DNA of 64,000 nt from Thermoproteota archaeon (GTDB lineage Archaea > Thermoproteota > Methanomethylicia > Culexarchaeales > B10-G16). The notes under the pieces were generated by a model, which was not told where the DNA came from, did not search any database, and worked only from the letters and a program-made list of their open reading frames with translations. Below, piece after piece: positions 7,863-11,678 of this stretch. The translations under genes were made by a program, and so were the position numbers. The stretch lies in assembly GCA_003649185.1 (NCBI GenBank), contig QMRB01000001.1, forward strand, positions 1-64,000. Reading direction: 5' to 3'. Positions within the stretch are counted from its first letter, which is position 1, and each line of letters opens with the position of its first letter.

Positions 7863-7927
7863 TAAAGCTTCACCCTTCCAGATTATATCACCTATACAAA
7901 TTGTTTATATAAATATTTCGTATATAT

Positions 7928-9045
7928 TTAAGTAAAAACTTTAATATGTTTATATGCTATTGCACATGAACCTTCAGATGAAACCATACATGGCCCCACA
8001 GGATTGGCGGGATTACAGATCTTGCCGAATAGGGGGCATTCTTCAGGCATTATCAATCCTCTGAGAACGTCTCCACATCTACATCCAGGAGGCATATCAT
8101 ATTTCTCCTCAACAGCTACATTGAAAGTTTTAAGGGCATCAAACCTTTCAAATTCATCTTTAAGCTCCAAACCCGACGAGGAGACACGTCCAATACCCCT
8201 CCAATATGCATCTGAAATTTTGAAGACTTCTCTCATAATTTTTTTAGCCTTCACATTTCCCTCAAACTTAACAGCCCTTCCATATTCATTTTCAACTTCA
8301 AATCTTCCTTCATTGATCATATCTATTAGCATAGCTACACCTAAAAGTACATCTATGGGTTCAAATCCCACTATAACCATTGGAACCTTATTTTTAACGG
8401 CTATAGGAATATATGGTTCTACACCTATAATGGTTGAGACGTGGCCTGGACATATAAAGCCATCTATTTTAATTTCACCTAGCTTTAGAAGATAATCCAT
8501 TATGGGCGGTATAAGTAGATGGGCTGAAATTATATGGAAATTTTTGGGAGGATTTTTAAGAAGTATGGAGGCTGTGGATGGAGCTGTGGTCTCGAAGCCT
8601 ATTGCCAAATGAACCACTTCTCTACTGGGATTTCTCTCAGCAATTTTAATTGAATCATAGATGCTGTAGACGACTCGTACATCACCTCCCATGGATTTAA
8701 CATCCATTAAAGAATAATTTACACCTTTAACTCTGAACATGTCTCCAAAAGTTGTTACAATAGCTTTTCCTTTCAATGCCATTTGGACTGCTACTTCAAT
8801 CTTTACAGGTGAAGCTACACATACTGGGCATCCTGGACCTGCCCTCAAATCCACATTTGGAATAAGCGACCTTATACCGTAATGTGTAATTGTATATTCA
8901 TGTTTCGGCCAGCCAGCTATTCTGGCTGTGTGCCGCATACATGCATGATTAAATATTTCCGCCCATCACATCTTCCATTAATATATTTAGTTAACTTTTC
9001 AGCTAGACTTCTATCCCGATATTTTAAAAGGAGTTTTTCAATCAA
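7928..9045 (-). CDS. hypD: [NiFe]-hydrogenase maturation protein HypD, interrupted by a 26-nt intron
   Basis: HypD is the Fe-S scaffold that, with HypC, assembles the Fe(CN)2CO group of [NiFe] hydrogenase. Exon 1 is 9045-8930 and exon 2 is 8903-7928; joined they give 363 residues, normal for HypD. Key motifs after joining are VCGTHEYTITHYGIR (Cys37, His40), GPGCPVC (Cys64, Cys67), GFETTAPSTA, PGHVSTIIG, GFEPIDVL, and the C-terminal cysteine region RCGDVLRG...CPLFG...SSEGSC. Unspliced, exon 1 runs into TAG (8919-8917) just after VCGTQPE, so only a 42-residue peptide would form. I chose TTG 9045 because GAGGTG lies 6 nt upstream. It follows metG by 22 nt, in an apparent mtd-metG-hypD operon. 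No hydrogenase or other hyp genes are in view. Confidence 0.9.
8904..8929 (-). other. Minimal archaeal BHB intron within hypD
   Basis: Read on the minus strand, this region folds into a canonical bulge-helix-bulge. The outer helix is TATG (8939-8936) with CATG (8902-8899). A 3-nt bulge AAA (8905-8903) lies on the 3' side. The 4-bp central helix is CGGC (8935-8932) with GCCG (8909-8906). A 3-nt bulge ACA (8931-8929) lies on the 5' side. The 7-bp inner helix is CAGCCAG with CTGGCTG, closed by loop AATAG. The archaeal endonuclease cuts after the second base of each bulge; doing so removes exactly 26 nt and joins GGC-AC to A-CAT-GAA, restoring Gly-Thr-His-Glu in frame. That both structure and protein agree argues strongly for a real intron. 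Splicing itself is not observed here. Confidence 0.85.
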
Positions 9046-9067
9046 ATAGGACACCTCGAAAATTTAT

Positions 9068-10777
9068 TTATTTAGCCAGTTTAGGTCTCTTAAGTTTGCT
9101 TCTCACCTCTGAGAGCTGCTTCTCTACAGTTTCAACGAAGTTTATAGGTAGCTTTTTGAATATGGGTTTAGGTTTACGTATTTTATGTCCCGGTTTAAGA
9201 TTGAAGGATGCTGCTTCAAACCATTTTGCACTGTGAACGGAGCCTTCTAATCCTAGCAGTCTCCAAACCTCTTCGGAAGCATCCGGCATGAATGGTTCCA
9301 TTAATATGGATAAGGCTTTAACGGCGTTTGCAGTTAACCATAAAGTTGTGGATGAATCTTCAAGGTTTGATTTAATTCTCCTCCACGGCTCCTTCAAATT
9401 TAAATATTGATTACATTTAGAGGAAAATTCGAGTAGGGCTTCAGCTGCAAGCCTCAACCTCATTTTCTCAATTTGAAGCCCTATCCTTTTCGGAGCTGAT
9501 TCAACGGTCTTTTTAAACTCTTCATCTTCCACATTTAACTTGGAGGGAGATGGAACTTCGCCGCCGAAGTATCTGTAAATGAAGCTTAAAGTTCTGTGAA
9601 TGAAATTTCCAATGTTATCGTTCAATTCAGAGTTAACTATTCTATAGAAATCTTTCCATGTGAAGTTTAAATCTCTCACCTCTGGACGCAATAATATTAG
9701 GGCGAAACGCCAATAATCGGGGGGACATATCTCCAATGCCTCGTCGGCCCAAACCCCTATACCCCTACTCTTGCTGAAGGCTTGACCCTCAAACATTAGA
9801 AATTCTATGCTTGAAATCTGCCATGGGAGAACATAGTGTTCCCCTGAAGCCATAAGCATTGCTGGAAGGATAATTGCATGGAAGGGAATATTATCTTTCC
9901 CTATGAAGAAGACGGTTTTACAATCCTTATTCAGCCAATAATCCTTCCATCTCTCAGCTTCCCCTCTAGAAGTGAAATATTCAAGGGTTGCTGACAGATA
10001 TCCGAGAAGCGCTTCAAACCAGACGTATATGGTCTTTCCGTTGGCTCCTGGAAATGGAGCTGGAATTCCCCATGCATTATCTCTCGTTATAGCTCTAGGC
10101 TTTAAACCCTCCCTAAACCATGCATTACAATAATTTTTGACGCTTGGAGGAAAGTGTTCATGATTCATGACGAAGTTATGCAGTTTCTCTGAAAGTTTAG
10201 TAAGATCGAAGAACCAGTGTCTGGTAACTTTAACTGTGGGTTTTGAACCGCAGAAGACGCATTTAGGATTTATGAGATCCAATGGATCTAAAAGTCTTCC
10301 ACAATTATCGCATTGGTCACCTCTAGCCTTCTCGTAGCCACAATATGGGCAGGTTCCCTCAATAAACCTGTCAGGTAGAAATATTTCGCATTTGGTGCAG
10401 AATGGAAGGGAAACATTCTCATCATATATGTATCCGTTCTCATAAATTTTCATGAAAAATTCCTGTACGAAACGTATATGTATGGGATTTTCAGTTCTAG
10501 TGTAATTGTCATAGCTTATTTTAAACTTTTCAAATAGAAGTGAAACGTAACTGTGAAGTTCATCTGTAAGCTTCTTCGGCTCTATTCCCAGCTTTCTAGC
10601 TTCAACTTCTATTGGAGTTCCATGCTCATCTGAACCGCTTACAAAAACAACATCTTCCCCTTTTAAACGGAGATATCTTGCAACCACGTCGGGGGAGATG
10701 ACGCATGCTATAAGCGTTCCAAGATGGGGGAAAGCATTAACATATGGCCATGCTGCACATATAACCCATTTACCCAA
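9068..10777 (-). CDS. metG: Methionyl-tRNA synthetase (catalytic and anticodon-binding)
   Basis: Charges tRNA-Met with methionine. The protein is 569 residues and contains a class I Rossmann fold with the HIGH-like PHLGT motif near residue 15. A four-knuckle zinc insertion carries several CxxC pairs (CTKCEIF, CPYCG, CDNCG, CVFCG), the catalytic lid has FSKSRG in place of KMSKS, and an alpha-helical anticodon domain follows. It lacks the C-terminal EMAP-type tRNA-binding domain found in some archaeal enzymes. I set the start at TTG 10777 because GGAGGTGA lies 4 nt upstream and the protein then begins at the conserved GKWVICAAWPYV; an open frame continues upstream to 10942 but overlaps mtd and is not conserved sequence. 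Confidence 0.95.
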   Translation of the reverse strand: MGKWVICAAWPYVNAFPHLGTLIACVISPDVVARYLRLKGEDVVFVSGSDEHGTPIEVEARKLGIEPKKLTDELHSYVSLLFEKFKISYDNYTRTENPIHIRFVQEFFMKIYENGYIYDENVSLPFCTKCEIFLPDRFIEGTCPYCGYEKARGDQCDNCGRLLDPLDLINPKCVFCGSKPTVKVTRHWFFDLTKLSEKLHNFVMNHEHFPPSVKNYCNAWFREGLKPRAITRDNAWGIPAPFPGANGKTIYVWFEALLGYLSATLEYFTSRGEAERWKDYWLNKDCKTVFFIGKDNIPFHAIILPAMLMASGEHYVLPWQISSIEFLMFEGQAFSKSRGIGVWADEALEICPPDYWRFALILLRPEVRDLNFTWKDFYRIVNSELNDNIGNFIHRTLSFIYRYFGGEVPSPSKLNVEDEEFKKTVESAPKRIGLQIEKMRLRLAAEALLEFSSKCNQYLNLKEPWRRIKSNLEDSSTTLWLTANAVKALSILMEPFMPDASEEVWRLLGLEGSVHSAKWFEAASFNLKPGHKIRKPKPIFKKLPINFVETVEKQLSEVRSKLKRPKLAK

Positions 10778-10832: not shown

Positions 10833-11678
10833 TTATCTGTGCGCTTTCTCCATGAATTTAACCTTATATCGTTTCTCTCCACTCTTAACATGTGGAGTTC
10901 TATATACCGTGTCATTTGACTTTTCAATTTCCCTGGCCTCATCAGCCAGTTTTGCCGCTATTCTGAGCAATTCATGTGCAGCTGCCACCATCGGCATATA
11001 TGCCTCCCTATCTTTCAGCACATAGCATCCTGTAGTGGAAAGTCTTGCAACTCTTCTAGCAGCTTCATAGCTTGCAATGGCCTTCGCCTTAGCATATGGA
11101 TTGCTGAAGCCTCCATAATTTTCAACAACGAAATATGCGTCTGCAATTATCTGTGGAAGCTTGACTTCTCCACCAGATTTAATCGCCGAAATTACCTTGT
11201 CGATTTCAGCTATAAGCATTCTAATAACGCCTGTTACAGCTAACACTTTTAGAATGTCGCTGTTAAACAGAACCATTTCAGTTGCATCTAAAAAGTCTCT
11301 TCTAGCACCTATCATTGGATCCGCCTGGATAATAATATATCCGAAGCCGTTCTCCTTCAAATCCTTCTCAGCCTTCTTTGCAGGTTCATCGGATATCACT
11401 ATGATTGGAATGTTTGGAAGCTTATCCTTTAAATGCATTCTACCCTTTCTCGGACCCTCTAACGCCGCGTTTGGAGTAACATTTACTATGAGTTGGGGAT
11501 TAAATTTTACAGCGGCATCTGCAACATCAATGCAATTCTCAGCATCCATCTTTCCACCAGTGGAGAAAACTCTTACCAATATATCCTCCCTGTTAGCTCT
11601 CTCATCCAACGCTATCTCAATTAGAGGAGATGAACCTATACAGCCGAATTTGACGACTGCTATGCGCAGTTGATTCAT
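10833..11678 (-). CDS. mtd: F420-dependent methylene-tetrahydromethanopterin dehydrogenase
   Basis: Interconverts methenyl- and methylene-tetrahydromethanopterin using coenzyme F420, a central step of methanopterin-based one-carbon metabolism (methanogenesis or archaeal Wood-Ljungdahl). The protein is 281 residues, the family length, and matches throughout: the N-terminal AVVKFGCIGSSPLIE, the VNVTPNAALEGP segment, ADPMIGARRDFLDATEM, and the C-terminal helical region with AAHELLRIAAKLADEAREIEK. No other protein family has this combination. GAGGG precedes the ATG by 6 nt. It starts the apparent mtd-metG-hypD transcript and faces away from the folate genes fhs-folD across an 83-nt spacer. Confidence 0.93.
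   Translation of the reverse strand: MNQLRIAVVKFGCIGSSPLIEIALDERANREDILVRVFSTGGKMDAENCIDVADAAVKFNPQLIVNVTPNAALEGPRKGRMHLKDKLPNIPIIVISDEPAKKAEKDLKENGFGYIIIQADPMIGARRDFLDATEMVLFNSDILKVLAVTGVIRMLIAEIDKVISAIKSGGEVKLPQIIADAYFVVENYGGFSNPYAKAKAIASYEAARRVARLSTTGCYVLKDREAYMPMVAAAHELLRIAAKLADEAREIEKSNDTVYRTPHVKSGEKRYKVKFMEKAHR

Follow-up and report, generated by a model that had tools for sequence, protein, structure and literature searches.

How does the hypD gene of this Thermoproteota archaeon encode its product when an insert interrupts the reading frame within the active-site motif? In the window, by which we mean the whole 64-kb stretch of DNA that was analysed, hypD lies on the minus strand, and 26 nt (8904-8929) split the Thr codon of the invariant CGTHE motif; in mRNA order the region reads ...CAUGUAUGCGGCAC / ACAGCCAGAAUAGCUGGCUGGCCGAA / ACAUGAAUAUAC..., with slashes at the two junctions. 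A sequence-only reading had proposed that the insert is a BHB-type pre-mRNA intron removed by the tRNA-splicing machinery, an explanation in which we have high confidence. Upon re-reading, the sequence, the 26-nt insert and the frame shift with its TAG stop were exactly as that reading had described them. The features, all on the minus strand, are given in mRNA order.

9045-9043, minus strand: putative TTG start of hypD, with GAGGTG upstream, placed from this purine-rich site and the length of HypD
8930-9045, minus strand: hypD exon 1, ending ...GTATGCGGCAC, two bases into the Thr codon
8936-8939, minus strand: candidate outer helix, exon 1 strand UAUG, pairing with 8899-8902; weakly supported
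8932-8935, minus strand: central helix, exon strand CGGC (Cys-Gly codons), pairing with 8906-8909; four of four pairs in 18 of 19 genomes, covarying
8929-8931, minus strand: 5' bulge AC^A, predicted cut between 8930 and 8929; AC^A or AC^T in 19 of 19 homologues
8904-8929, minus strand: putative intron of 26 nt, ACAGCCAGAATAGCTGGCTGGCCGAA, phase 2, with a TAG stop in the unspliced exon 1 frame
8910-8928, minus strand: intron hairpin CAGCCAG-AATAG-CTGGCTG, 7 bp with a 5-nt loop, from the predicted fold and pairing across 19 genomes
8906-8909, minus strand: central helix, intron strand GCCG, pairing with CGGC at 8932-8935
8903-8905, minus strand: 3' bulge AA^A, predicted cut between 8904 and 8903; first base A in 19 of 19 homologues
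7928-8903, minus strand: hypD exon 2, ACATGAATATAC..., including the stop codon; matches Pfam HypD from position 29 without splicing
8899-8902, minus strand: candidate outer helix, exon 2 strand CAUG (His-Glu codons); weakly supported

If each 3-nt bulge is cut after its second base, exactly these 26 nt are lost, VCG-T-HE is restored and a 363-residue HypD with VCGTHEYTITHYGIR results, as had been claimed; the stretch of spliced protein that spans the junction is CGTHEYTITHYGIR. The spliced protein matched the Pfam HypD profile at 8e-138 over profile positions 3-350 (query letters without residue 2), and the match of the unspliced gene started only at profile position 29. A single hypD was found in the source genome (76% complete), with no sign of the second intact copy that the sequence-only reading had considered. 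Near hypD, positions 10833-11678 of the window encode a methylene-tetrahydromethanopterin dehydrogenase (PF01993), beside which ORF reading places a putative formate-tetrahydrofolate ligase and FolD, so that C1-carrier genes adjoin hypD.

On the mRNA strand, the site reads UAUG-CGGC-AC^A-CAGCCAG-AAUAG-CUGGCUG-GCCG-AA^A-CAUG (^ marks a cut). The local RNA fold was better than all of 200 shuffles (z = -3.9), and the 5' bulge, the central helix and the hairpin were all present in the predicted fold. The motif by itself was nevertheless rejected as evidence, since loose BHBs are common by chance: with G-U pairs allowed, 18 occurred on both strands of the 64-kb window, and Markov shuffles contained 6-14 per strand, i.e., about ten per 64 kb. 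A narrower scan, for BHBs with a GC-rich core whose removal fuses two broken frames, returned hypD as the sole match and thus no other intron in the window; applied to another 396 kb of the source genome, it returned five candidates, of which two read as junctions of neighbouring genes and none was convincing. The only Rfam match over 7900-9200 was a weak, sub-threshold snoRNA hit, and no other RNA family explains the element. Because the motif is insignificant alone, comparison across genomes decides.

When 101 related genomes were searched with the profile, hypD genes of the family containing the Nezhaarchaeota proved to match only from position 28-29 or to carry a stop, and reading of the DNA revealed introns of 20-25 nt at the same nucleotide in six of six members of this family. 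A pattern scan of 84,980 species then yielded Baldrarchaeum yapensis (Asgard) and Bathyarchaeota PFL18, and further searches added one Bathyarchaeia and nine Asgard genomes. The search for the same insertion site that the sequence-only reading had suggested thus produced at least 18 other genomes (6 Nezhaarchaeota, 2 Bathyarchaeia and 10 Asgard, Baldrarchaeum included), and this genome is not alone in having the intron. This census is a lower bound, since the pattern missed introns shorter than about 20 nt and genes with ATA before the Cys codon. Among 398 sampled genomes of the same phylum, the pattern scan found no intron outside this class except one match judged to be due to chance. Also judged chance were a Micromonosporaceae match (L052) with no HypD context and pattern matches in G092, G596, G609 and G733, whose sequences have long gaps and no GC-rich paired core. 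In a separate case (L039, G078:C1:605082-606035), the HMM matches hypD in three pieces, a TAA stands in frame, and the gene looks decayed or otherwise interrupted.

The 19 introns differ in sequence and are 16, 17, 20-26, 28, 33 or 37 nt long, so that 26 nt is not, as had been thought, nearly as small as the structure allows; cbf5 introns, too, go down to 16 nt. Their lengths cover all three classes modulo 3, and those that keep the frame (G014, G398 and G399) all contain stop codons. Splicing after base 2 of each bulge gives an intact HypD frame in every one of the 19 genomes, most of which are metagenome-assembled and which are phylogenetically non-independent. Relatives in the same order have an empty site and an intact motif. 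A sequencing or assembly error, or a decayed pseudogene, would mean that the 26 nt simply break the gene and that no full HypD is made; the draft state of the genome, its 76% completeness and the single gene copy would allow this. However, the rest of hypD is intact, the site lies 8.9 kb inside a 70-kb contig, and 18 other genomes are interrupted at the same site by different inserts with the same pairing, which in practice refutes this explanation and leaves it with a negligible probability.

The comparison indicates that the central helix and the intron hairpin are maintained by compensatory changes. With the register held fixed, the 19 genomes form 198 of 209 pairs, whereas shifting the partner by 1-2 nt leaves 79-86. 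At the fourth central position, 18 of the 19 are paired versus 9.3 in shuffles, and the first three hairpin pairs form in 52 of 57 cases versus 24.3, both with shuffles that ignore relatedness; the one exception in the central helix is G398, with a G-A mismatch. This fourth pair tracks the Gly codon: exons with GGC or GGT face an intron GCCG, and exons with GGG face CCCG. Codon choice is constrained in the same region, since the Cys codon is TGC in 19 of 19 intron-bearing genes versus 47 of 106 intronless ones, and the Gly codon GGA, used by 46 of the 106 intronless genes, occurs in none of the 19.

The outer helix behaved differently. Three of its four pairs are fixed by codons, and the variable pair formed in 14 genomes versus 13.2 in shuffles, with no covariation. 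The fold containing UAUG/CAUG has a predicted energy of -17.9 kcal/mol versus a minimum of -22.1 kcal/mol, in which CAUGU pairs with ACAUG instead, and such alternative outer pairing is more stable in most of the 19 intron sequences, that of the window included; the size of the 3' bulge depends on which outer helix forms. Thus, of the strict hBHBh' form that had been assigned to this element, the central helix and hairpin stand on covariation and fold, but the outer helix neither covaries nor belongs to the minimum-energy fold, which makes the strict label no more than possible. In these models the relaxed HBh' form fits equally well. Since the most stable predicted fold lacks the strict outer helix in most genomes, splicing may involve a relaxed substrate, which would require an endonuclease of broad specificity.

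A short hairpin and stop codons soon after the 5' junction are also what programmed translational bypassing would present, in which ribosomes hop the hairpin without RNA splicing, as in phage T4 gene 60. Yet the codons for take-off and landing do not match: ribosomes would leave from ACA or ACT, whereas the triplet before CAY is AAA, ACT, ATC, AGT, ACA, AGA, AAC, ATA, AGG or ATT. Covariation of the exon Gly codon with the intron, together with two 3-nt bulges placed exactly at the junctions, as EndA requires, further argues against hopping, which we consider extremely improbable. The ORF list does contain a 336-aa ORF (7928-8938) whose ATG could serve as an internal start, giving, with no splicing at all, a HypD that lacks the CGTHE cysteine. 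This cysteine binds iron in HypD (C41 in E. coli and C38 in Thermococcus; PMC9900092), so HypD made from a start beyond the intron would be expected to be inactive. Moreover, in each of the 19 genomes exon 1 keeps an open frame and its conserved HVCG or HICG, and a truncated gene would preserve neither exon 1 nor a paired intron; internal initiation is therefore hardly credible. We conclude that the conserved BHB-type intron in hypD is real and very probably spliced.

In archaeal splicing, EndA cleaves behind the second base of each BHB bulge before a ligase joins the exons. EndA was found in 14 of 14 genomes searched, 11 of them intron bearing, and the source genome encodes two EndA paralogues, one with the catalytic Tyr, His and Lys. 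RtcB is encoded in the source genome and in 16 of the 18 other intron-bearing genomes; it was not found in G020 (67% complete) and G472. ARAGORN predicted tRNA introns of 14-58 nt in stretches of the source genome, in genes for Ser, Tyr, Leu (two), Phe and Pro (L215, L218, L221, L225 and L232), as predictions not individually checked. These findings, along with the same-site introns in 18 genomes and the compensatory changes, lend strong support to the sequence-only reading of an archaeal BHB intron. In the proposed mechanism, folding of the hypD transcript would bring CGGC, from the Cys-Gly codons, into pairing with GCCG at the 3' end of the intron, next to the short intron hairpin; the tRNA-splicing endonuclease, for which two paralogous subunits are encoded, would cleave each 3-nt bulge behind its second base, and RtcB would ligate the exons into an mRNA encoding VCGTHE. 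We infer that cleavage and ligation take place in vivo and that the intron has no function besides being removed.

On a tree of 125 HypD proteins, the intron state changes at least five times by parsimony, or three times if only strongly supported branches are used. In the Thermoproteota set, a single clade of all nine intron-bearing genes was rejected (p-AU 0.00013), because the HypD of the source genome is sister to those of three intronless members of its own order. The same placement (100/99 support, 71% identity) led us to reject contamination, since a gene that groups with those of the same order fits its genome. On this tree the intron occurs patchily, having been gained or lost three times or more, a distribution that fits loss or repeated gain alike.

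The nearest known counterparts are the cbf5 introns of the Crenarchaeota (Desulfurococcales and Sulfolobales), which are 16-44 nt long and form BHB-like RNA cut between bulge positions 2 and 3 (PMC2738675), the cut predicted for hypD as well. Both kinds of intron occupy one conserved site, show patchy loss and encode no protein. They differ in gene and site, as the hypD intron is not at the conserved cbf5 site and, unlike that in cbf5, splits an active-site motif; in host, with hypD introns in Nezhaarchaeota, Bathyarchaeia, Asgard and the lineage of the window itself; and in evidence, as cbf5 splicing was shown by cDNA, whereas that of hypD is predicted from sequence. Archaeal pre-tRNA BHB introns share the arrangement, with h-H-bulge-h' on the 5' strand and h'-H-bulge-h on the 3' strand, and presumably the enzymes, but in hypD the context is an mRNA and the exon side of the central helix codes for protein. 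In Haloferax volcanii, the HVO_1309 mRNA is cleaved by EndA at BHB sites (PMC7714728); that intron lies in the 5' UTR, whereas the one in hypD interrupts the reading frame. As of 2020, cbf5, in Crenarchaeota, was named as the one interrupted archaeal protein gene (PMC7714728). No hypD intron was found in the literature searched, mostly open papers, and predicted introns in other genes are mentioned elsewhere; with this coverage and those mentions, priority for the hypD intron is likely, not certain, and hypD is likely a new host gene, in new lineages, for a known kind of intron.

A second conserved site, at the active site of a hydrogenase-maturation enzyme and present in Asgard and other uncultured lineages, would make mRNA splicing by the tRNA machinery broader than thought. 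Gene callers truncate or miss genes with such introns, and there is now a real data set for asking how archaeal mRNA introns arose, how they were lost and what role they may have.

In five Asgard genomes of the hypD-intron clade, rtcB is lengthened by 30 bases between LPD and AHQGYG(FP) and has a stop in frame, and thus carries a putative intron of its own.

L205 (G559), L206 (G478), L207 (G476), L208 (G477), L209 (G475): putative 30-nt BHB-type introns in rtcB

The insert shows a hairpin, a 5' bulge of 3 nt and a CCCG/CGGG central helix, whose fourth pair is G-A in two genomes; the 3' side is an 8-nt internal loop, which points to a relaxed form. Pairing between the two flanking exons covers 10-11 of 11 bp and includes a compensatory change, from CTG/CAG to TTG/CAA, that is synonymous. 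The RtcB search found no second intact rtcB in G559 or G475-G478, and the ligase thought to seal the exons thus seems to be split itself, a case that makes auto-splicing control directly testable. In a broader scenario, which we regard as doubtful, the Cys-Gly-Thr codons of hypD may be a recurrent BHB insertion site, with repeated gains in two archaeal kingdoms or retention from a deep ancestor followed by many losses; splicing may tie hydrogenase maturation to the tRNA-splicing enzymes, and in the Asgard clade with intron-split rtcB the ligase may process its own mRNA as a possible feedback switch. A different oddity was observed at L211 (G849:C2:90500-94200), where pieces 1-56 and 49-426 of the RtcB profile are separated by ~1.45 kb within one 1032-aa frame, an intein-like arrangement.
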